This document shows, one piece after another, positions 6,431 to 31,994 of a stretch of 35,755 bases of DNA. Source of the DNA: Gemmatimonadota bacterium (lineage in GTDB: Bacteria > Gemmatimonadota > Gemmatimonadetes > Longimicrobiales > Gaopeijiaceae); the NCBI GenBank assembly GCA_022826005.1, contig JAJDVT010000042.1, positions 1-35,755 of the forward strand, read 5' to 3'. The notes below the pieces were generated by a model, which ran no database searches, was not told where the DNA came from, and saw only the letters and a program-made list of their open reading frames with translations. Every line of letters starts with the position of its first letter. The stretch's first letter is position 1. The translations under genes and the position numbers were made by a program.

Positions 6431-7020
6431 TCCCGATAATCCTTCATCATGATGCTTAACCTCTTCCTTGCGTGTCGAAGATTGGACCGAACCGTCTCAG
6501 GCCGCACCCCCTGAATCCTCGCTACCTCCGCGGTACGGTACCCCTCGAGGTGGACCAGGAGGAACGTGTCTCCCTGCCTCTTCGGCAGGCGTGCCAGGCA
6601 GTGCCGGAGCCGAGCCAGGAATTCGGTCCGCTCGAGGTTCTCGGATGGATCGTCATGGTCATGCACGCCGTTCAACGACACCACTTCGGAGATGTACCTG
6701 GTCTCGTCCTTCCGTCGTGTCTTCCTTTCCGCTGCCCAGTTGGAGCAAACGCTGCTCGCCACCTTGTTGATCCAGCCGCGTAGCGAGCCGCGCCCGGTGA
6801 ACTGCATTCTCCGCTCCCACATGCGGATGCAGATCCGCTGGAACAGGTCATCCCGGTCGCTTTGATCCAAGGCATACGAAGCGGCCACGCTCTCGATCAG
6901 GGGACTGAAGTGCGCCAGCACTTTTCTCAGGCTGTCGAGATCGCCGCTCTGGAAGGCTTCAAAGTCGAGTTCGGCGTCGGCGTCGAAACTGTCGCGGGGG
7001 CCTTCGGAGCTGTCACTCAT
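6427..7020 (-). CDS. ECF-type RNA polymerase sigma factor (second)
   Basis: The 197-residue product contains region 2 (DLDSLRKVLAHFSPLIESVA, then DRDDLFQRICIRMWERR) at about residues 27-75 and region 4 (CLARLPKRQGDTFLLVHLEGYRTAEVARIQGVRP and ETVRSNLRHARKRL) near 135-190, with a short acidic linker. It should direct RNA polymerase to a small set of promoters. The start at 7020 overlaps the preceding gene's stop (ATGA) and gives a normal-length factor; the frame is open further upstream without support. It sits third in an operon led by the cysteine-rich protein and driven by P1, so it probably activates its own expression. Confidence 0.88.
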   Translation of the reverse strand: MSDSSEGPRDSFDADAELDFEAFQSGDLDSLRKVLAHFSPLIESVAASYALDQSDRDDLFQRICIRMWERRMQFTGRGSLRGWINKVASSVCSNWAAERKTRRKDETRYISEVVSLNGVHDHDDPSENLERTEFLARLRHCLARLPKRQGDTFLLVHLEGYRTAEVARIQGVRPETVRSNLRHARKRLSIMMKDYRE

Positions 7021-7820
7021 ACATAGCGCTTGCGCGCGATGCCGAATAGCACTGAAGCCAGCAGGAGTGGAACCACCAGCGGTATCCAGGCGGCGACCAC
7101 TCCCGACCGCATCGTGCCGTCTCGCAGGAAAGGCTCGACCGGTCCGGCGATCATCACAGCGCCGAAATAGGCCACGCCACCCAGCACGCCCAGCGCCAGC
7201 AGGACGTTCCTTCGTGGACCGCGCCCGAAGTTCTCGGTGAGCTGAGCGGCAAGCACCCCCATCATCGTGTTGATCAGGCCGAACACGGCCATGGCGATGG
7301 GCCGGTGGAGGTACCACCTGAGTATGTTGGGTGGAGCTTGGGACCGGTCGTCAACCCGCAGACTGTATTCCGACGGCGGATTGTCCTCCACAGCGCGGAG
7401 ATTCCGAAGGATGTTTGGTGGAGTTGCGGCCCCGAATGTTCGTCGCTCTACGGTCCCGTCGCCCAGCGTATCCCAATACCGGCTCTCCAGTTCAGGTGCG
7501 CCCCATGCAGCGAGATAGTAGGAAGCCGCGCCGACCGCGAGTCCGAAGGCGACGGCGGTCGGAAGGAGGCGTCGCGAGTATCCCATCACCTGCGCAAGCT
7601 TCACACCGCCCGCAAAAAGCAGGAACGGCAGGATGAAACCCAGATCGTTGGCAACCGACCAAATCCACCAGGAGACGACCTCGAACTGTCCAGCTGAAGG
7701 CCATTGGAACAACAGGAGCGTCTTGACCCCTAGCAGCAACGCACACCAAGGCAGCATGGATCCGAGGCCCGCCGTCATGCAAGCCAGGAGAGTTGGACGC
7801 TTAGCCGCTACCGTCCGCAT
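7017..7820 (-). CDS. Multi-pass membrane protein, LptF/LptG-like C-terminal half
   Basis: The 267-residue product has about six membrane helices: two at the N-terminus, one near 85-105, a soluble loop (about 110-165) and three at the C-terminus. The last part (AMAVFGLINTMMGVLAAQL, a GRGPRRN loop, then VVAAWIPLVVPLLLASVLFG) resembles the C-terminal helices of LptF/LptG lipopolysaccharide-export permeases. The large periplasmic jellyroll of those proteins is missing, so true LPS transport is doubtful. It overlaps the cysteine-rich gene by 20 bp and the sigma gene by 4 bp, so all are co-translated. A role in sensing or an envelope function under the sigma factor is plausible. Confidence 0.65.
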   Translation of the reverse strand: MRTVAAKRPTLLACMTAGLGSMLPWCALLLGVKTLLLFQWPSAGQFEVVSWWIWSVANDLGFILPFLLFAGGVKLAQVMGYSRRLLPTAVAFGLAVGAASYYLAAWGAPELESRYWDTLGDGTVERRTFGAATPPNILRNLRAVEDNPPSEYSLRVDDRSQAPPNILRWYLHRPIAMAVFGLINTMMGVLAAQLTENFGRGPRRNVLLALGVLGGVAYFGAVMIAGPVEPFLRDGTMRSGVVAAWIPLVVPLLLASVLFGIARKRYV

Positions 7821-8037
7821 TCCAAGGTGTCAGGATCGAAGTTTCCAGATTCGGGTCTCGGCACTGCGCGTCCTTGGTACAGTACTGGCCTATCCAGCAA
7901 CACTTCCAGCAGCAGAACGCTTCTTTCCCCTCGCCCCGACAGCAGTCCATGATTCCGCTTCCCGGGACCGGGGTCGCAGCGTGGGCGCTTCCCAGCGCGA
8001 GGTTGATCAAGATGAGTACCATGGCGAATTTGCGCAA
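7801..8037 (-). CDS. Tiny secreted cysteine-rich protein
   Basis: The 78-residue product has a clear signal peptide (about 1-21, LALGSAHA) and a mature part of under 60 residues. This carries eight cysteines, in three CC pairs plus two singles (DCCRG, AFCCWKCCWIG, QYCTKDAQC). AGGAG lies 8 bp before the ATG at 8037. Paired cysteines spaced this way suggest a disulfide-knotted or metal-binding peptide; I know no matching family. It is the first gene of the sigma operon, 80 bp downstream of promoter P1, and overlaps the next gene by 20 bp. It could be the effector of the regulon, a redox sensor ligand or a toxin-like peptide. Confidence 0.72.
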   Translation of the reverse strand: MRKFAMVLILINLALGSAHAATPVPGSGIMDCCRGEGKEAFCCWKCCWIGQYCTKDAQCRDPNLETSILTPWNADGSG

Positions 8038-8506: not shown

Positions 8507-11500
8507 CTACGACACCCGTCCCCCCTCCCCACCCCGCACCACTGCCCCCATCCCCAGCCCCCTCAGCACCTCGTTCACCTCCGCCAGCTCTTCGCCCCAC
8601 ACTCCGTCCAGCTCGGCGAGCAGCCCCTCCAGCGTCCCCACCATGATCCCGAACACCTCGTACATCCCGCTCGTCGGCCGCCCATCCCCCCGCTCCGACA
8701 TCGACAGCAGGTTCGCCAGCCGGTTGTTCACCTTGATGGGGAAGTTGAGCGGGTCCTGGTTGGACCGGTTCCGCACCTGGTAGATCTCGCCCTCGATCTC
8801 GTCCAGCGCCGACCGCAACCGGTCCGCCGCCGCGCTCAGCCGTTCGTCATCCACCGCCTCCAGCCGCTCCGCCAGCTCCGTCTTCACCCGCTGGATCTCG
8901 ATCACCGCGCGGTTCGCCTCGTTCACCCTGGCGCGGATCTCCATCCCGAACTCGTACTGGGCGACCAGGTCCTCGTCCGTCACGTCGGTGATCCACGGGT
9001 TGCGGCGCACCTCCAGCTCGACGCTCGTGGAGACGACGCCCAGGTCCAGCCGCGCGCGGTACATCCCCGGGGGGACCGTCGGCGACATCGTCCGCACCCC
9101 CCAGAGGATCATCCCGGGGAAGGTGGCGGCCGGATCGGTCCGCAGGTCCCACCGTAAGCGATTCCAGCCGGCCTCCACCGGCAGATCCGGACCCGACCAG
9201 CGGTCCCGCGCCTCGCCCTCCGCCGCCACGGTGAAGGTCCGCAGCACGTTCCCGTCCGCATCCTCGATCTCCAGCTTCGGGTCCGACACCGCTTCGCTGG
9301 CGACCGCCTCCGCCATGAAGTCCCCCAGCCACCACGTCAGCACCGCCCCATTCGCGGACCGGTACGCAGGGGCCGGTTCGAATATCGCCAGGTCCCTATC
9401 CAGCATCCCCGGCTGGTACTCCCTGAGCGGCCCCACGTTGTCCAGCACCCAGAACCCCCGCCCGTGACTCGCCATCGCCAGCTCGTCATGCTCAGGGATC
9501 ACGTCCGTCACCGGCATGTCCGGCAGCCCCGGGTTCAGCTCCTGCCACCAGCCGCCGTCGTCGAACGTCACGTACACGCCGTGGTTCGTCCCCGCGTACA
9601 GCAGCCCCTCCCGGTTCGGATCCTCGCGCACCGAGTTCACGTACGCGTCGTCGCGGATACCGTTCACGATCCTGGTCCACGTCGCGCCGTAGTCGTCCGT
9701 CTTCCAGATGTGCGGCCGGAAGTCGTCGAGCAGCGGCAGGCGCGCGGACACGTACGCCTTGCCCTCGTCGAACGCCGACGCGTCGATCAGGCTGACGCGC
9801 CCGAAGTCCGGCATGTCCGGCGGCGTCACGTTGGTCCAGCTCGCGCCGCCGTCGCGCGTGACGTGCACGAGCCCGTCGTCCGACCCCGTCCAGATCACGT
9901 CGATGTCGACCTTGCCGGGGCCGACCGCGAAGATCGTCGCGTACACCTCCGGCCCGTTCATGTCGCCGGTGATCGGGCCGCCGGAATGGCCCAGCGTCAT
10001 GGGGTCCGCGCGGGTGAGGTCGTCGCTCAGCCGCTCCCAGGTGTTGCCGCCGTCGGTGGTCCGCCAGAGCCGGTTCGACGACGTGTACAGCACATTCGGA
10101 TCGATGGGCGAAAAGATGATCGGAAAGGTCCATTGCCAGCGCTCGACCATGTCGATGGCCGGCTCGCCGGAGTAGAACCACGGATAGGGATTGACCTCGC
10201 GCGAGGTGCCCAGGCGCCGGTTGTACCGGTCCAGGTAGCGACCGTTGTTGGTGCCCGAGAAGAAGACGTCGAGGTCCTTCGGGTCGGGCGCGATGTAGCC
10301 CGGCTCGCCGCCGCCTGCCCGGTAGTGCACGTCCATCGAGCCGCGGGTGATGGCCGGGGCGCGTGCGCCGGCGGGCACTCCGCCGTGGGCGCCGGCATCG
10401 GCCGCGTCGTCCCGCCCGCCCGCCATCGCCGACGCGAACCGCCCGGCGTTCCAGTCGGACGGCAGGCAGAGAGTGCTGTTGTCCTGCTGCGACCCGCAGA
10501 TGTGCCACGGGATGTGCGCCGTCGTGACGCCGTGGTAGAACTGCGCGGTGGAAAACTCCTGGTCGGTCCACTCGCTGCCGGTGGTGAAGCTGACCGCGCC
10601 GCCGCCGTCGTTGGCGACCACCACGTGCGCGGGGTCCTCGGGGTCGATCCAGAAGTCGTGGAAGTCGCCGTGGGTGCCGTTGTTGATGACCTGGTAGGTC
10701 GCGCCGCCGTCGGTCGAGCGGAAGAAGGACGTGTTCTGCACGTACACCACGTCCTCGTCGTGATGGTCGGCGTACACGTGCGTGTAGTAGAACGCGCGCT
10801 GCCGGATCCGCCGCTCGTCGTTGATGAGCTCCCAGCTGTCGCCCCCGTCGTCGCTGCGGAAGAGGCCGCCGTCGTCGTGCTCGAAGAGGGCGTAGACGCG
10901 GCCCGAGTTCGCGCTCGAGACCGCCAGCCCGATCCGCCCCACCACGCCCTCCGCCGGCATGCCGGGGTTGCGGGTGATCTCGGTCCACGTGTCCCCGCTG
11001 TCGACCGATTTGAACATGCCGCTGCCCGGCCCGCCTGACGACATCGTGTACTCCTTGCGGAACGCCTCCCACAGCGCCGCGTAGATCACGTCCGGGTTGT
11101 TGCGATCGAGCACGATGTCGATCGCCCCGGTGCGCGCGTCGCGGAAGAGGATGCGCTCCCAGGTGTTGCCCCCGTCGGTCGACTTGAAGACGCCCCGCTC
11201 TTCGCTCGGCACCCCGTACTTCCCGAACGACGCGACGTAGACGATGTCGGGGTTCGTGGGGTGGATGCGGATCTTGGAGATGCCGTGGGATTCGCGGAAG
11301 CCGATGTGCTCCCAGGTCGCGCCCGCGTCGCGGCTCCGGTAGACGCCATCGCCCGGCAGGATGTTGCCGCGGATGCAGGTCTCGCCGGTGCCGATGAAGA
11401 CGAGGTCGGGGTCCGTTTCGGCCACCGCGACCGCGCCGATCGACGACGAGCTGATCTGGAAGTCGGTGACGGGGAACCAGTCCTCGCCGCCGTTGGCAGT

Positions 11501-11812
11501 CTTCCAGAGGCCGCCGCCGGTCGCGCCGAAGTAGGCCTCCTGCGGGCGGCCCTTGACACCGGAGACCGCGATCGAGCGCCCGCCCCGGTCGGGGCCGAGG
11601 TTGCGCCAGGAGTAGCCGGCCAGGAAGGCGGAGTCGAGGACGATTTGCTGGGCGGCGAGGGGCTTGGGGGCGCCGAGCACGTGGGCGACGGCTGGCGGGA
11701 GCGGGCCGCCAACCGCCGGGAAGCCGCCAACAACCCAAAAGCCGGCCACGAGGGCCACGCCGAGTGCAATTCGCCGGACGAGATTCGGGCCCTGAACTGA
11801 AGTGGTTGTCAC
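8507..11812 (-). CDS. Secreted VPS10/sortilin-like BNR-repeat propeller protein
   Basis: The 1101-residue product has an N-terminal export signal (about 1-54, ending LAAQQ). A long beta-propeller region follows with many Asp-box/BNR motifs: LWKTANGGEDW, RSRDAGATWE, KSTDGGNTWE, KSVDSGDTWTE, RSDDGGDSWE, RTTDGGNTWE, VTRDGGASWTN and KTDDYGATWT. From about residue 780 there is an Ig-like part (LEIEDADGNVLRTF, then AGWNRLRWDLRTD, as in FlgD-like domains), then a helical C-terminus. Such proteins are abundant in Bacteroidota and Gemmatimonadota and are often annotated as glycosyl hydrolases, but catalysis is unproven. GTG at 11812 has AGGA upstream. It is divergent from the ABC binding protein. Confidence 0.88.
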   Translation of the reverse strand: MTTTSVQGPNLVRRIALGVALVAGFWVVGGFPAVGGPLPPAVAHVLGAPKPLAAQQIVLDSAFLAGYSWRNLGPDRGGRSIAVSGVKGRPQEAYFGATGGGLWKTANGGEDWFPVTDFQISSSSIGAVAVAETDPDLVFIGTGETCIRGNILPGDGVYRSRDAGATWEHIGFRESHGISKIRIHPTNPDIVYVASFGKYGVPSEERGVFKSTDGGNTWERILFRDARTGAIDIVLDRNNPDVIYAALWEAFRKEYTMSSGGPGSGMFKSVDSGDTWTEITRNPGMPAEGVVGRIGLAVSSANSGRVYALFEHDDGGLFRSDDGGDSWELINDERRIRQRAFYYTHVYADHHDEDVVYVQNTSFFRSTDGGATYQVINNGTHGDFHDFWIDPEDPAHVVVANDGGGAVSFTTGSEWTDQEFSTAQFYHGVTTAHIPWHICGSQQDNSTLCLPSDWNAGRFASAMAGGRDDAADAGAHGGVPAGARAPAITRGSMDVHYRAGGGEPGYIAPDPKDLDVFFSGTNNGRYLDRYNRRLGTSREVNPYPWFYSGEPAIDMVERWQWTFPIIFSPIDPNVLYTSSNRLWRTTDGGNTWERLSDDLTRADPMTLGHSGGPITGDMNGPEVYATIFAVGPGKVDIDVIWTGSDDGLVHVTRDGGASWTNVTPPDMPDFGRVSLIDASAFDEGKAYVSARLPLLDDFRPHIWKTDDYGATWTRIVNGIRDDAYVNSVREDPNREGLLYAGTNHGVYVTFDDGGWWQELNPGLPDMPVTDVIPEHDELAMASHGRGFWVLDNVGPLREYQPGMLDRDLAIFEPAPAYRSANGAVLTWWLGDFMAEAVASEAVSDPKLEIEDADGNVLRTFTVAAEGEARDRWSGPDLPVEAGWNRLRWDLRTDPAATFPGMILWGVRTMSPTVPPGMYRARLDLGVVSTSVELEVRRNPWITDVTDEDLVAQYEFGMEIRARVNEANRAVIEIQRVKTELAERLEAVDDERLSAAADRLRSALDEIEGEIYQVRNRSNQDPLNFPIKVNNRLANLLSMSERGDGRPTSGMYEVFGIMVGTLEGLLAELDGVWGEELAEVNEVLRGLGMGAVVRGGEGGRVS

Positions 11813-12071
11813 GGTAGCGGATCCTGTGCGTGGGTGGGCGGAGCAAGCGAGGTCAAGCTACCGGCGGCGCGGTGGGCGGGACAAGCGACAATCGCATTGC
11901 TGCACCGTTTGCGTTGATTCTCCAAGCTCCGGTCGGGCAGATTGGAGACAAGGCGGTCCTGCGGGAGGGCACGGAAGAGCCGCACGGGTAGAGCCGAAGC
12001 AGCGTTGCCGCTATTCTCCACCGATGGATACCCTCACGTCCGCGTGACCGAACCATGAAGGAGCCGTCCCC

Positions 12072-15340: not shown

Positions 15341-16254
15341 CTCTCCAGCCGGACCCGCGAGGATCCGGAAATCGTCACTTGACCGGACGGCATGGGGGGC
15401 GGCAACTGCACCGATCCGCTGCCGCTGCGTTGGCTCTCGGCGTAGGCGACCAGGCCCCGGTCGATGTCCCAGAGGACCAAGCCCGTGGTCGAGAACTCGG
15501 TGGCCGTGATCATCGACATTCCCATCATCTCCATGGTGACCTCGGCGGCGGTTTCGCTCGCGACCGTAATGTGCAGCATCGCACGTCCGTCGATCACGGT
15601 GTCTCCGGCCAGGGTGTAGGTGACGGTTGTCGTGCTCGTCGACTCCGTCCCCTCGGCGTCGACATCCTGCGAGACCGTGTCCACCCAGGTGTCGCCCGGA
15701 CCCACAACCTCGTCCGGCAGCGGCGGGAAGAGTTCCTGGCCAAGGCCGCCCGCCTCCGACAAGGACATCAGGCCCGTGCCGAAGCCCCCCAGGTCCGGCA
15801 TTTCGGAGAACTCGGGAGCCGAGATGACCTCCTGTTCGCCGGTCCGGCTCAGCAACACCACGTACTCCCCGCTCAGAATCGACTCGTCCACGCGCTCGGT
15901 GCCGATCATCTCGTTCGAAACAGCCACGTCCAGATCCTCGACGGTGCCGATGACGCGGACGCCCCCCGGATCCGCCGCGAATTCGAGGGCCAGCGTCATC
16001 GTCGACTGCACCCCGAAGTCCATGGTCATGCCGGTCATGGTCGTACCGGTCACGATGGAGTCGACGACGTGGTACGTGGCGCTCGGCGGCGACGGCACGT
16101 CGTATGCGAGCGGGCCGGTTGGGAATGGGCTGCCGGGGCCCGCGCAGGCGGCGGCGGTGATGGCCGCGACGGCCGCGGCTGTGGCTGCAATGTCGGCGCG
16201 TGCCGGAGCGACCGCGCCGGCCGTGGTTCCCGGGGTCCTGTCATTCGCTATCAA
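15337..16254 (-). CDS. Exported lipoprotein, paralogue C of a four-member family
   Basis: About 305 residues from a TTG at 16254. I prefer this start because AGGAG lies 7 bp upstream, inside the end of the CDGSH gene; a GTG at 16281 is possible but has no ribosome site. A hydrophobic export segment leads to a lipobox-like AAAC. The mature part shows the family skeleton: LAYDVPSPPSATYHVVDS, GDTWVDTVSQDV, YTLAGDTVIDGRAMLHITVASE, and TGLVLWDIDRGLVAYAE. The overlap with the CDGSH gene implies coupled translation. Confidence 0.75.
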   Translation of the reverse strand: MIANDRTPGTTAGAVAPARADIAATAAAVAAITAAACAGPGSPFPTGPLAYDVPSPPSATYHVVDSIVTGTTMTGMTMDFGVQSTMTLALEFAADPGGVRVIGTVEDLDVAVSNEMIGTERVDESILSGEYVVLLSRTGEQEVISAPEFSEMPDLGGFGTGLMSLSEAGGLGQELFPPLPDEVVGPGDTWVDTVSQDVDAEGTESTSTTTVTYTLAGDTVIDGRAMLHITVASETAAEVTMEMMGMSMITATEFSTTGLVLWDIDRGLVAYAESQRSGSGSVQLPPPMPSGQVTISGSSRVRLER

Positions 16255-16681
16255 ATTCAATCTCCTTGTGGGTTCCGTCACAGAACGGCTTCGTTGACGA
16301 CGCCCCGCAGCGGCACAGCGCGCCCTTCGTCCCCTCCGACCGGCCGCCGTCCGACGCCACGACCGCCAACGGCCCGCGAACCAGCAGCGGCCCGTTCGTC
16401 GCGCAGACGATCAGGACGGGTTCCGGGCTGTCAGCGGCGGCGCCGACCTCCGTATCGTCTCCCGTCCGCCCCGGCACCAGCCGCCCGCCCAGGATCACGC
16501 CCGGATCGTCGAACCCGACCCGGCGGTGCGACCCGTCGCAGAACGGCTTGTTGCCCGAGTGGCCGCAGCGGCACAGTGCCACGTCGTCGGTGTCGGCGAC
16601 GATCTCGCCGTCAACCTCGACCCGGATCCGGCCGGTCAGGCACAGGGGGCCGCTCGGAGGCACTTCCGCTACGTTGCTCAT
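16241..16681 (-). CDS. Double-CDGSH iron-sulfur protein
   Basis: The 146-residue product carries two CDGSH sites, CRCGHSGNKPFCDGSH (about residues 48-63) and CRCGASSTKPFCDGTH (about 123-138). Each matches the CxC...CxxxH binding pattern for a redox-active, pH-sensitive [2Fe-2S] cluster with three Cys and one His ligand. The first is preceded by GPLCLTGRIRVEVDGE, usual for this bacterial subfamily; the second by VLIVCATNGPLLVRGPL. AAGGAG precedes the ATG at 16681. It lies 20 bp after the ETF-quinone oxidoreductase gene, so a role in electron transfer or Fe-S handling with it is plausible. Confidence 0.9.
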   Translation of the reverse strand: MSNVAEVPPSGPLCLTGRIRVEVDGEIVADTDDVALCRCGHSGNKPFCDGSHRRVGFDDPGVILGGRLVPGRTGDDTEVGAAADSPEPVLIVCATNGPLLVRGPLAVVASDGGRSEGTKGALCRCGASSTKPFCDGTHKEIEFDSE

Positions 16682-16701
16682 GGTCGACTCCTTCGCTCGC
16701 G

Positions 16702-18366
16702 TCACATCCGCCGGTAGCGGGGGCCGCTGCCGCCTTCCCGCGGCGACCACCTCGGCCCGAGCACGTCGGTCGCCTTGCAGTCCACGCAGTTGGGCGCGTT
16801 CACGCGCAGGCGGCCCCCGTCGCGCTCGTACACCCCGGCCGGGCACAGGTGAACGTACATCTCCGCGACCTCTTCCGACACATCCTCGCCCACGGCCAGG
16901 TGCGAAGGGATGTCGTCGCGGGTCTGGTTCCCGCTCTTGAAGACTGCGTCGACCTTGGAGACCGCGAGGGGCGCACCGGCCGGCTCCACTTCCTCCGCCA
17001 GCCATTTCGGCTCCGCCGCATCCGTTTCCGTCGCAATCCTTCCGCCCGGCACGCGCCCGCCCGTCACCGTCGCCAGACTCGCCTTCACTCCGCCTCGGAG
17101 GAACCCGCTCTTGAACGCCAGGCGCATGTTGCGGTTGCGTTTCAGGTCGCTGGCCACGTACGAGCGGTCCACCGCCTCGGTGTAGGACGCGAGCGCCGCC
17201 TCCGAGATGTCGTCCGCCCTGAGCGCCCGGTAGATCGTGCGCGCGGCGAGGATCCCGGAGTGCATCGCGTAGTGGATCCCCTTGAGCGACGCCACGTCCA
17301 CATAGCCGGCCGCGTCGCCGACGATGCAGATCCCGCCCCCGTGGCGGCGCGCGGGCAGGGAGTGGTACCCGCCCTCCGGGATCGTCTTGGCACCCCATTC
17401 GAGCATCTCGCCGCCCGCCAGCATGCCGCGGAAGAGCGGATGGTGCTTCACCCGCTGCAGCAGCCCGTGCACGTCGAGCCGCGCGTCCCGGTAGTCGAGG
17501 CTGACGACTATTCCCAGCGCCACCAGGTCGTCCGCGAGCGGGTACGCGAAGGTGCCGCCGAAGCCGTCCTTCATCAGCGGCCAGCCCATCGTGTGGATGA
17601 TCCGGTCCAGCGGCCGCTTCACCTCCCACAGCTCCTTGACGCCCAGCGAGTGGATCTGCGGGTTGGCCGACCCGATCCGCTGCCAGTCCAGGTAGGCCTG
17701 GGTGAGGGTGCCGCGCGTCCCCTCCGAAAGCACGGTCACGCGTGCGGTTACGTCGACCGGCGGCATGTAGTTCGGCCCGCCCGGCTCGCCGTCGCGGTTG
17801 AGGCCTCGGGGCGTGGTCCGCACGCCGATCACGTCGTCGCCGTCCACGAGGAGGGCGTCGGCCGGGAAGCCCGGGAGGATCATCACGCCCGCCTCTTCGG
17901 CGCGCTCGCCCAGCCATCGCACGATCTCGCAGATCGAGGCGATGTGGTTGCCGTGGTTGCGCATCGTCGGCGGCGCGGGGATGCGGAGCGCGCTTCGCCC
18001 GGTCAGCAGGTAGACCGCCTCACGGCCCACCGGGCGCCGGAATGGGAATTCGGAAACCTCCATCCCGGGAAACAGCTCCCGGAACGCGCGCGGATTGACC
18101 ACCGCGCCCGACAGATTGTGGTCCCCCAGCCCTTCCGCCTTCTCCAGCACGCCGATCTCGACCTCGCCGACGCCGTCGCCCGCCTCGTTTCCCTCGGCCA
18201 CCAGCCGCGCAAGCTCGATCGCCCCGGCCAGCCCGGCCGGCCCCCCACCCACGAACACCACGTCGAGCGGCACCGCCTCGGCGTCCGGCGGCTCGTGCAG
18301 GATGAGTCTGTCCATCGGCAGCGCGGGCTGGTGCCGCGCTGGGCGTATGCGTGTACCTGTTTTCAT
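16702..18366 (-). CDS. Electron-transfer flavoprotein-ubiquinone oxidoreductase
   Basis: The 554-residue product is of usual length. It has an N-terminal FAD Rossmann motif (VFVGGGPAGLAGAIELARL, about 38-56), then LEKAEGLGDHNLSGAVV, the FAD-binding GDAAGYVDVASLKGIHYAM, and a C-terminal Fe-S region. ETF-QO passes electrons from fatty-acid and amino-acid dehydrogenases, via ETF, to membrane quinone. The cluster region has Cys 508 and the pair C527-x-x-C530, but the fourth expected cysteine appears as Thr 533 (CVDCKATD rather than CxxCxxC). ATG at 18366 is 18 bp from a divergent start at 18385; ATG at 18315 is an alternative. The ETF subunits are not in the window. Confidence 0.88.
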   Translation of the reverse strand: MKTGTRIRPARHQPALPMDRLILHEPPDAEAVPLDVVFVGGGPAGLAGAIELARLVAEGNEAGDGVGEVEIGVLEKAEGLGDHNLSGAVVNPRAFRELFPGMEVSEFPFRRPVGREAVYLLTGRSALRIPAPPTMRNHGNHIASICEIVRWLGERAEEAGVMILPGFPADALLVDGDDVIGVRTTPRGLNRDGEPGGPNYMPPVDVTARVTVLSEGTRGTLTQAYLDWQRIGSANPQIHSLGVKELWEVKRPLDRIIHTMGWPLMKDGFGGTFAYPLADDLVALGIVVSLDYRDARLDVHGLLQRVKHHPLFRGMLAGGEMLEWGAKTIPEGGYHSLPARRHGGGICIVGDAAGYVDVASLKGIHYAMHSGILAARTIYRALRADDISEAALASYTEAVDRSYVASDLKRNRNMRLAFKSGFLRGGVKASLATVTGGRVPGGRIATETDAAEPKWLAEEVEPAGAPLAVSKVDAVFKSGNQTRDDIPSHLAVGEDVSEEVAEMYVHLCPAGVYERDGGRLRVNAPNCVDCKATDVLGPRWSPREGGSGPRYRRM

Positions 18367-29579: not shown

Positions 29580-30146
29580 ATGAGCTACCGTACCAACCCT
29601 GACAGGATCCTTGAAAATATCGACCGCGCACGCAGCCGGGATATCGAGCGCGCGCTGTCGCTTAATGACCGCCAGGCCCGCGGGAGGGAGCTCGACACTG
29701 AGGTTCCCGAAGGAGACGCGACGACGCCCGAGCGCCTGCGCCGGATCTTCGGGCTGGTCGACGCCGGATACCGCCGGGCGGCGCAGGGCACGGAGATGAT
29801 CCCGCTCGCGAACCGCTTCCGCGCGATCGGCGACATCTCGCACCACTGGGCGCGCGGCGACGTGAGCGTTTCCGTCCACTACCACGACTCCGAGCGCCGG
29901 GACGACGTGGGGGTCGTGCCCTTCGAGATCACCCCCCGCGACCTCGAGGAGGCAAAGAAGACGACCCGCACCAGCCGCCCGGATGTGAATGCGATGAAGG
30001 TGCTCCGGCTGCGGCTCCGCGACGGCGTTCTGGCGGCCTACCGGAAGGTCGAGCCCCGTCTGCGCGACGCGCTCAAGGAGCGGGCCGATCTGGGCCACCT
30101 GGAGGCGGAGATCACGCTGGACCTGCGTCCGCAGGCGAACGAATAG
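29580..30146 (+). CDS. Protein of unknown function
   Basis: The 188-residue product is rich in Arg, Asp and Glu. The first half is mostly helical (LRRIFGLVDAGYRRAAQG), a short central beta part contains DVSVSVHYHDSERRDDVGVVPFEI, and a helical end contains VEPRLRDALKERADL. There is no signal peptide, membrane segment or known motif. GAGG precedes the ATG at 29580 and the frame has good codon bias. It lies 75 bp upstream of the secretion ATPase on the same strand and diverges from paralogue D. Confidence 0.6.
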   Translation: MSYRTNPDRILENIDRARSRDIERALSLNDRQARGRELDTEVPEGDATTPERLRRIFGLVDAGYRRAAQGTEMIPLANRFRAIGDISHHWARGDVSVSVHYHDSERRDDVGVVPFEITPRDLEEAKKTTRTSRPDVNAMKVLRLRLRDGVLAAYRKVEPRLRDALKERADLGHLEAEITLDLRPQANE

Positions 30147-30221: not shown

Positions 30222-31994
30222 ATGACGGCGACAGGGGACGAACTGCTCGGAAAGCTCCTCGTAGACGGGGGAGCGCTGACTGCTTCGGCGCTCGCGAGTG
30301 CGCGCGAGGAGCAGCGGCGGTCGGGGCGCGGCCTGGGGGAGATCCTGCTGCGCAAGGGGCTCGTCGACGAAGTCGAGGTGGCGAGGGCGCTGGCGACACA
30401 GCTGGGGCTCGCCTACCTGGCACCCCCTCTGGCGCCCGATCCGAAGGCGCTGAAGAAGGTCGAGCCGGGGCTGGCGCGGGCCAAGGGGGTCCTGCCGCTG
30501 GCGCTCAAGGGGCGGCAGTTGACGGTCGCCATGGCCAATCCCCTCGACACCGAGGTGATCGACGAACTGCGCTTTCGCTCCGGGTGTCATGTGGAGGTGG
30601 TGGTGGCGCCGCCCTCGGCGGTGGCCCAGAGGGTGCGCGACGTGTATGGCGGGGAACTCCCGGAACTCCTCGACCGCCTCGGCTCCCTGGCCGCCCCGGA
30701 GGGAAGGGGGGGGCTGCGCGTCCTTGAACAGGAGGCCAGCGCCGGGCCCATCGTCAGGATCGTCGACCACCTGATCTCGACGGCAATCGACAGTCGCGCA
30801 AGCGACATCCACATCGAGACACTCGGGGCCGGTTCGCGGGTCCGGCTGCGCGTCGACGGCCTGCTGGCCACGGCCACCGAGCTGCCGCCGGGCACCCACG
30901 GCGCGGCGATATCGCGCGTGAAGATCATGGCCGGGCTCGACATCTCGGTGCGCCGAAGGCCTCAGGACGGGGGGTTCACCGTCCGGCGCGGGAACGCGGA
31001 GCTGACCGTCAGGGTGTCCACCATCCCCACGCATCTGGGTGAAAAGGCCGTACTGCGCCTCCTCGACCCCGGTGACGCGCCGGCCGACCTGTCCTCGCTC
31101 GGGCTGTCCTCGAGCGATCTCGCCCGCCTGCGCCAGGTCCTCGCGCGGCGGCAGGGCGCGCTCCTCGCGGCGGGCCCGACCGGTTGCGGCAAGACGACGA
31201 CGCTCTCAGCCGCGGTGGCGGAGCTGTCCGGCGCGAAGATCAACATCGTCACCCTGGAGGACCCCATCGAGTACCGGTTTCCGGGCGTCGCGCAGATGGA
31301 GATCGACAACAAGGCGGGGGTCGACTTCCCGTCCGGACTGCGCGCGATCCTGCGGCAGGATCCGGATGTGATCCTGGTCGGGGAGATTCGTGACCGGGAG
31401 ACGGCGGAGATCGCGATGTCGGCGGCGGTGACCGGCCACCTCGTGCTGACGACGATTCACACCGTCGACGCGCCGAGCGCCGTCGTGCGCCTCCTGGAAA
31501 TGGGGGTGCCGAGCTTCCTCGTGGCGGGAGGGCTGGCCGGGGTGGTGGCGCAGCGCCTGGTGCGCAGGCTGTGCTCGCGGTGCGGGGGTCGCGGCAGCGG
31601 CGAGTGCACCGTCTGCACCAACGGCTACCGGGGACGCAGCGGCGTCTTCGAGGTCTTGACGGTCGACGACGACCTGCGAACGGCCATCAACGCGGGCGCG
31701 TCCCTGACCTCGCTTCGCACCCTTGCGCGCCGCGGGGGCATGGGCTCGATGGCCCGCGACGCGATGCGCCAGGTCGCCCAGGGTGTGACCACGCCTCACG
31801 AGTCCGGCCAGATCATTGCGCTGACCCGTGGGGCCGCACCGAACTGCGAGAGCTGTCAGGCGCCGCTGCCGCCGGGGGCCGCCGGATGCCCCATGTGCGG
31901 GCGCCCGCGCGTCCACGTCTGCGCCTGCGGCGATCCGCTCGACAAGCGGTGGAGGTATTGCCCGGCGTGCCTGCGGGCCGCCACCGGGAGATAG
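30222..31994 (+). CDS. PilB/GspE-like secretion ATPase with C-terminal double zinc ribbon
   Basis: The 590-residue product has a MshEN/GspE N-terminal domain (1-150; LVDGGALTASALASAREEQRRSGRGLGEIL). An ATPase domain follows: Walker A GPTGCGKTT (318-326), Asp box TLEDPIEYRFPG, Walker B-like ILVGEIRD (384-391), His box TIHTVDA, and a tetracysteine C451-x2-C454 with C462-x2-C465. It energises pilus or type II secretion assembly. After residue 540 comes an extra tail with eight cysteines in two ribbon-like sets: C542, C545, C556, C559 and C567, C569, C580, C583. No other pilus or secretion gene adjoins it. Confidence 0.88.
   Translation: MTATGDELLGKLLVDGGALTASALASAREEQRRSGRGLGEILLRKGLVDEVEVARALATQLGLAYLAPPLAPDPKALKKVEPGLARAKGVLPLALKGRQLTVAMANPLDTEVIDELRFRSGCHVEVVVAPPSAVAQRVRDVYGGELPELLDRLGSLAAPEGRGGLRVLEQEASAGPIVRIVDHLISTAIDSRASDIHIETLGAGSRVRLRVDGLLATATELPPGTHGAAISRVKIMAGLDISVRRRPQDGGFTVRRGNAELTVRVSTIPTHLGEKAVLRLLDPGDAPADLSSLGLSSSDLARLRQVLARRQGALLAAGPTGCGKTTTLSAAVAELSGAKINIVTLEDPIEYRFPGVAQMEIDNKAGVDFPSGLRAILRQDPDVILVGEIRDRETAEIAMSAAVTGHLVLTTIHTVDAPSAVVRLLEMGVPSFLVAGGLAGVVAQRLVRRLCSRCGGRGSGECTVCTNGYRGRSGVFEVLTVDDDLRTAINAGASLTSLRTLARRGGMGSMARDAMRQVAQGVTTPHESGQIIALTRGAAPNCESCQAPLPPGAAGCPMCGRPRVHVCACGDPLDKRWRYCPACLRAATGR

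Follow-up and report, generated by a model that had tools for sequence, protein, structure and literature searches.

A conserved double zinc-ribbon tail on an unlinked PilB/GspE-class ATPase, a candidate type IVa pilus extension motor in Gemmatimonadota genomes without pilB

The window analyzed here, i.e., the whole stretch of 35,755 nucleotides from a Gemmatimonadota contig, encodes a PilB/GspE-class ATPase that carries a double zinc ribbon behind its ATPase domain. The ATPase, its parts and the gene upstream of it are as follows:

29580..30146, + strand: upstream gene, 188 aa, co-directional with the ATPase gene, of no known family; a conserved neighbor
30222..31994, + strand: zinc-ribbon-tailed PilB/GspE-class ATPase, 590 aa (open reading frame with T2SSE, MshEN and DZR matches)
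30246..30401, + strand: N-terminal MshEN two-motif segment, residues 9–60 (NF053729, 46.6 bits, cut-off 38)
30426..30659, + strand: MshEN domain (Pfam stretch), residues 69–146 (PF05157, E = 3.7e-18)
30732..31802, + strand: T2SSE ATPase domain, residues 171–527 (PF00437, E = 8.5e-110)
31572..31616, + strand: contracted tetracysteine of the ATPase, C451xxC454-x7-C462xxC465 (cysteine positions, alignment)
31845..31970, + strand: double zinc ribbon, residues 542–583 (PF12773, invariant cysteines, purifying selection)

The protein belongs to the PilB/GspE class: its T2SSE domain retained all four catalytic boxes in a motif test, namely Walker A (from residue 318), the Asp box (344), Walker B (384) and the His box (404), and its best fold matches among solved structures were PilB/PilF and GspE, at 34–42% identity. 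It scored below the cut-offs of the models for individual members of the class, with 447.7 bits against 675.65 for the PilB equivalog TIGR02538, 446.7 bits against 630.25 for GspE (TIGR02533), and 376.9 bits against 850 for TfpB (NF053534). The AF2 model had a mean pLDDT of 78.8, with moderate values of about 59–74 in the tail. Judging from its family membership, the ATPase would assemble into a hexameric ring.

A reading made from the DNA sequence alone (hereafter, the sequence-only reading) had described about 50 extra residues with eight cysteines in CxxC/CxC pairs behind the ATPase domains, and the cysteine count bears this out. Eight of the 14 cysteines in the protein lie within its last 54 residues (537–590; 31830–31994 of the window, including the stop codon), with P = 1.6e-7 for at least eight cysteines in 54 residues at the rate found outside this stretch (6 of 536). 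They form the pairs C542xxC545, C556xxC559, C567xC569 and C580xxC583. When the whole protein was scanned, the double zinc ribbon model (DZR, PF12773; cut-off 27.3) covered residues 542–583 with 24.0 bits, under the cut-off, while the C-terminal 114 residues scanned alone scored 28.2 bits, over it. On the strength of the latter scan and the four cysteine pairs, we assign the tail to DZR, with predicted binding of two zincs. The ATPase thus combines a C-terminal double zinc ribbon with the tetracysteine C451/C454/C462/C465, as proposed. Searching the PDB with the tail sequence by itself gave one chance-level match (E = 8.5).

The eight-cysteine tail was found in all 29 family loci (L003–L031), in 20 of the 21 closest named loci, in six out of six more distant loci (L053–L057, L059) and, by eye, also in L144, L170 and L171. 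In the one exception, L051, a frameshift splits the ATPase gene and the tail lies in the second frame, an arrangement shared by L151 (genome G116). An alignment of 22 sequences, which takes in three Acidobacteriota, one Nitrospirota and two more distant Gemmatimonadota, showed no variation in W577 or in any of the twelve cysteines, four belonging to the tetracysteine and eight to the tail. The tail has evolved under purifying selection, with dN/dS of 0.055–0.297 in eight out of eight comparisons. Homologs lacking the tail would have pointed to local read-through of the frame; since it is present throughout the family loci, has been kept by purifying selection and turns up in other phyla, a read-through or annotation artifact is refuted with near certainty, and the zinc-ribbon ATPase is a real, conserved feature. 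The suspicion that such a ribbon is not standard for the class also proved sound: none of 53 generic PilB-like relatives (L058, L060–L111) carries the tail, and a literature search, mainly of open-access excerpts, found no zinc ribbon described on PilB or GspE among the papers listed.

The ATPase tetracysteine had been taken as normal. All four of its cysteines are in place, but the loop between the two pairs is contracted to seven residues and falls outside the spacing CXXCX21-40CXXC published for PilB/GspE (PMC5061722; papers are cited here and below from excerpts). Loops of 4–7 residues were found in the family zinc-ribbon proteins measured, plus one of 19, and loops of 27–32 in zinc-ribbon ATPases outside the family (L053–L057, L059, L168–L171). 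Four tail-less relatives (L062, L067, L078, L087) have a loop of 13 residues, so the x21-40 rule is not absolute. In a quick tree, a branch with support 98 sets the short-loop zinc-ribbon group apart (L134 bears the short-loop label there, its own loop length not being measured), so contraction of the old zinc hairpin is a trait of this lineage that comes on top of the tail.

By a hand count that required the match to extend to query residue 584 or beyond, 47 of the 58 family genomes carry the tailed ATPase. Across 150 genomes drawn from the phylum, tail-reaching matches occurred, among the matches listed, in its own family and in G180, from another family of the same order; matches ending at the tetracysteine could hide further tailed copies. 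A draw of 119 genomes from the Acidobacteriota group yielded, again among the matches listed, stop-free full-tail matches in G185, G216, G295, G194 and G257, with G273, G298 and a second G194 match, all running through stop codons, left uncounted. Outside its own phylum, the tail was found in Acidobacteriota and in one Nitrospirota genome. Its origin needs three changes on the free tree; a single-clade constraint was not rejected (p-AU 0.361), so that one origin is as acceptable as several, and a tree holding Gemmatimonadota and Acidobacteriota together scored higher than the free tree (p-AU 0.757).

The statement that no pilus or secretion genes surround the ATPase holds for the locus. No pilus or secretion families appeared among the other window ORFs scanned with Pfam, and 11 pilus-cluster protein queries matched no neighbor of the ATPase in the window and 27 related loci, their only two matches being the second half of the split L051 ATPase; these queries could miss distant versions in other phyla, and the unclustered ORFs are partly identified. 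Neighbors of the ATPase that are conserved in many of the 21 closest named loci include the upstream 188-aa gene and, downstream, menC, among others. None of the 58 family genomes lacks the 188-aa gene, 55 having a single match and three having two; of the 47 genomes with both genes, 38 (hand count) have it on the contig of the ATPase, within a few kb. The AF2 model of its product (mean pLDDT 76.4) matched no PDB entry at E ≤ 0.001. We considered this gene as an obligate partner of the ATPase and rejected the idea, because it is also present in the 11 genomes lacking the ATPase and is therefore no specific partner; its position is synteny, not proof of partnership. The minus strand of the window further encodes a large Sortilin-Vps10/BNR-type protein (8510-11857) and a CDGSH iron-sulphur protein (16241-17917).

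What the view of the locus missed is that the genome does encode a pilus machine at other sites, though without PilB, its usual extension motor. Away from the ATPase, this genome encodes the secretin PilQ, PilO, PilN, PilM, a GspH-like protein and an N-methylated pilin, together with a ComEA-like protein, PilT, PilC and a prepilin peptidase (PilD). Type IV pili are generally assumed to require a dedicated extension ATPase. Two proteins of the genome exceed the PF00437 cut-off, the zinc-ribbon ATPase (369 bits) and PilT (158 bits), and in this genome and six PilB-less relatives the zinc-ribbon ATPase is the sole PF00437 match above 360 bits, the others reaching at most 169. PilB-bearing relatives have the gene order SprA-like (named by eye), comEA, pilB, pilT, pilC, and in eight genomes (G000, G053, G025, G022, G026, G008, G011, G045) pilT comes immediately after comEA; one of these, G025, consists of a single contig. 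The zinc-ribbon ATPase is retained in every one of the eight. G020 has an operon PilB that passes TIGR02538 (723.6 bits against 675.65); the zinc-ribbon ATPase gene does not lie beside pilT and pilC, the position expected of a pilB. On a 30-genome tree built without PilT and PilC, the state of pilB requires at least three changes, also when starred branches only are considered; since pilB occupies one and the same position in the other genomes, we read these changes as losses.

Across the family, PF00482 (PilC) exceeded its cut-off in 43 of the 58 genomes, 42 of them with the zinc-ribbon ATPase and one (G033) without. The 15 genomes without PF00482 comprise five with the ATPase (G002, G005, G038, G044, G057) and ten without, so that PF00482 was found in 42 of 47 genomes with the ATPase versus 1 of 11 without it (Fisher p = 5.7e-7, ignoring kinship). 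G038 and G044, at 76% and 75% completeness, contain PilB pieces, so their missing PF00482 may be a gap in the MAGs. Hand counts gave PilM at E < 1e-15 in 38 and operon-type PilB, defined as a match of at least 190 residues at 54% identity or more to the G020 PilB, in 35 of the 58 genomes. Seven genomes (G000, G025, G053, G022, G026, G011, G045) have PilM and PilC without PilB, and each of them carries the ATPase; in G008, PilC and PilT are accompanied by weak PilM matches only. The ATPase also persists with open frames in three genomes with no PF00482, operon PilB or PilM below 1e-15, namely G057 (97% complete), G005 (94%) and G002 (88%). In G050 (99% complete), which has neither PilM nor PilB at these thresholds and is counted among the 42 on a weak 36-bit PF00482 match, the ATPase is broken into two pieces at contig ends, its middle missing; an early-flagged stop in this gene was absent on re-examination, and we make no pseudogene claim for it. 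The prepilin peptidase is kept by G005, G057 and G050.

The absence of pilB is linked with changes in PilC and PilT. For the rate analysis, we looked at 35 of the 58 family genomes and used 34, having dropped G033 with its different system; the other 23 were without PilC, had an interrupted operon or lay outside the retrieved set. PilC aligns from residue 1–3 onward in all 26 PilB-bearing genomes and from residue 41–61 onward in all eight PilB-less ones, in which the PilC N-domain of about 57 residues is unrecognizable (L126 11603-12634, L127, L128, L138–L141, L200). In these eight, the gap between the end of the PilT alignment and the start of the PilC alignment is only 35–128 bases, and no N-domain was seen in the frame upstream of PilC. 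The median distance to the PilB-bearing set was 0.468–0.719 in PilB-less versus 0.177–0.288 in PilB-bearing genomes for PilT, and 0.419–0.860 versus 0.166–0.274 for PilC, with no overlap in either case. The ranges overlapped for the controls (ComEA, the ATPase and the 188-aa gene), whose medians were slightly higher in PilB-less genomes (p = 0.022–0.044, ignoring kinship). Columns conserved in PilB-bearing genomes and lost in PilB-less ones numbered 21 of 211 in PilT and 17 of 224 in PilC, as compared to 0 of 169 in the ATPase, 0 of 30 in ComEA and 0 of 38 in the 188-aa protein, and the PilB-loss signature of the ATPase is limited to one K/R column. PilT and PilC nevertheless stay under purifying selection in the PilB-less set: within the genus and to G026, dN/dS was 0.15–0.28 for both, 0.17 for the pilin and 0.15 for PilQ, and the close pair G000/G053 gave 0.15 for PilT and PilC, like the single PilB-bearing pair compared (0.14–0.16). 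PilM and PilN were looser (0.34 and 0.46, G000 vs. G025).

Our best explanation, which we put forward tentatively and as close to an even call, is that this protein is an unlinked PilB/GspE-class motor with zinc ribbons that drives type IVa pilus extension in trans and replaces the lost PilB. Encoded away from the pilus genes, it would act, powered by ATP, on PilC, PilM, PilN, PilO, PilQ and the pilins. In its own genome and in other PilB-less family members it would most likely be the extension motor in PilB's place, and in PilB-keeping relatives it would serve as a second motor, like TfpB in Acinetobacter baylyi. In favor of this reading are the intact catalytic boxes, the pilus genes elsewhere in the genome, the presence of the ATPase in all seven PilB-less genomes with PilM and PilC, its co-occurrence with PF00482, the linked changes in PilC and PilT under continued purifying selection, and the TfpB precedent. 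The putatively zinc-binding ribbons and the contracted tetracysteine hairpin would probably form a docking or oligomer-stabilizing module on the C-terminal face of the ring. Docking to a partner through the ribbons, as the sequence-only reading suggested, is plausible; our analysis identified no docking partner of the ATPase.

A more far-reaching claim, that the ATPase is the sole type IVa extension motor in at least three family lineages in which pilB was cleanly deleted, the PilC N-domain shed and PilT and PilC remodelled, is possible and in our judgement rather doubtful. If it is true, the PilC N-domain would belong functionally to PilB. In PulF, a relative of PilC, residues 2–54 form a separate N-domain that is dispensable but needed for full efficiency, the partner of which its authors name as an open point (PMC10790770); the same paper cites a Neisseria pilG N-domain mutant rescued by the removal of PilT. 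PilB has been reported to bind the N-terminal cytoplasmic domain of PilC (PMC5595344, PMC5424180), which, from these excerpts, we take to be Cyto1 and not the short N-domain. The joint loss of pilB and the PilC N-domain is a testable lead on the partner of that domain.

Several observations count against an extension motor. The ATPase occurs in G057, G005, G002 and G050 without a convincing PilC, no neighboring pilus gene was found in the loci searched, and the ATPase shows no PilB-loss signature beyond the K/R column. Recent pilus loss or MAG gaps could lie behind the four genomes, and so could a pilus-independent role.

A serious rival, which we consider unlikely, holds that PilB-less pili run on PilT alone as a two-way motor, the ATPase being unrelated and serving, e.g., another envelope assembly. 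The acceleration of PilT, with its lost columns and a divergence far beyond that of the controls, fits this rival as well, and zinc-ribbon ATPases in genomes without detectable PilC agree with it. There are also precedents, as CpaF is a single bifunctional motor of Tad pili (PMC12019362, PMC11300603) and extension of the MSHA pilus is also promoted by PilT (PMC9815625). An unrelated ATPase is harder to reconcile with its retention in seven out of seven PilB-less genomes with PilM and PilC, and with the tendency toward joint loss, ten of the 11 genomes without the ATPase having no PF00482 match.

We regard as improbable a pilus-independent MshE-type motor with zinc ribbons binding nucleic acid or another cytoplasmic partner. 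Zinc ribbons often serve as interaction or nucleic-acid modules, and the ATPase has an MshEN domain, for which both PF05157 and NF053729 pass. The motifs within it speak against this role. The Arg of the RLG motif is missing from both MshEN halves, with L and G instead, and both motifs also fail the relaxed form of the published c-di-GMP-binding pattern, [RKPN]hGxxhh..., which begins with Arg or alternatively K, P or N (PMC5013675); control of the ATPase by c-di-GMP is weakened because both arginines are gone. No GGDEF match was found among the window neighbors scanned with Pfam, and no partner was identified. In favor of this rival, in Acidobacteriota a GGDEF (diguanylate cyclase) gene (6910-7926, minus strand) lies divergent from the zinc-ribbon ATPase of L055 and L057 holds a gene of the same cluster. 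The Nitrospirota zinc-ribbon ATPase (L056:7038-10289) has, by eye, several tandem MshEN-type repeats at its N-terminus.

That the PilB-less pilus is a static or decaying remnant in need of no extension motor would account for the loss of pilB and the PilC N-domain, the divergent PilT and PilC and the looser PilM and PilN, but is very improbable given the low dN/dS of PilT, PilC, pilin and PilQ and the resemblance of the G000/G053 values to those of the PilB-bearing pair.

Among known systems, the proposed in-trans extension motor resembles PilB (TIGR02538; PDB 5tsh, 5oiu) in its T2SSE core, catalytic boxes, four tetracysteine residues and MshEN-type N-terminus, with about 40% identity to the solved PilB/PilF cores; unlike PilB, it falls under the PilB cut-off, is unlinked to pilus genes, and has a loop of seven residues and the extra double zinc ribbon. 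With GspE/EpsE of type II secretion it shares the PilB/GspE-class core and a zinc tetracysteine (PMC5061722), whereas it scores under the GspE cut-off, has the additional tail and has no type II operon that was found beside it. MshE-type c-di-GMP-binding ATPases share MshEN by Pfam and NF053729 and differ by the Arg that the present protein lacks in both RLG motifs. A functional precedent is TfpB of A. baylyi, an unlinked, phylogenetically distinct PilB homolog and second extension motor, which one species has without PilB (PMC8213720); the ATPase is likewise an unlinked PilB-type protein found in PilB-less genomes, but lies far below the TfpB cut-off, and the excerpt of PMC8213720 describes no zinc-ribbon tail on TfpB. 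In the literature excerpts examined, TfpB was the only unlinked alternative extension motor found described. The missing pilB is of greater interest than the tail alone. A conserved zinc-ribbon motor remaining where PilB vanished would show how a pilus motor can be exchanged.

The family also contains other ATPases of this class. Paralogs with a C-terminal receiver-like part (response-regulator, by eye) are encoded at L133:8059-10389 and L137:7947-10085, and G057, in which no PilC was found, has one receiver-tailed paralog beside a GGDEF-like gene (by eye). G033, the genome with PilC and no zinc-ribbon ATPase (L201 C34, L202 C20), encodes a different, distant PilB/PilC-like pair and a diverged T2SSE frame near its copy of the 188-aa gene.
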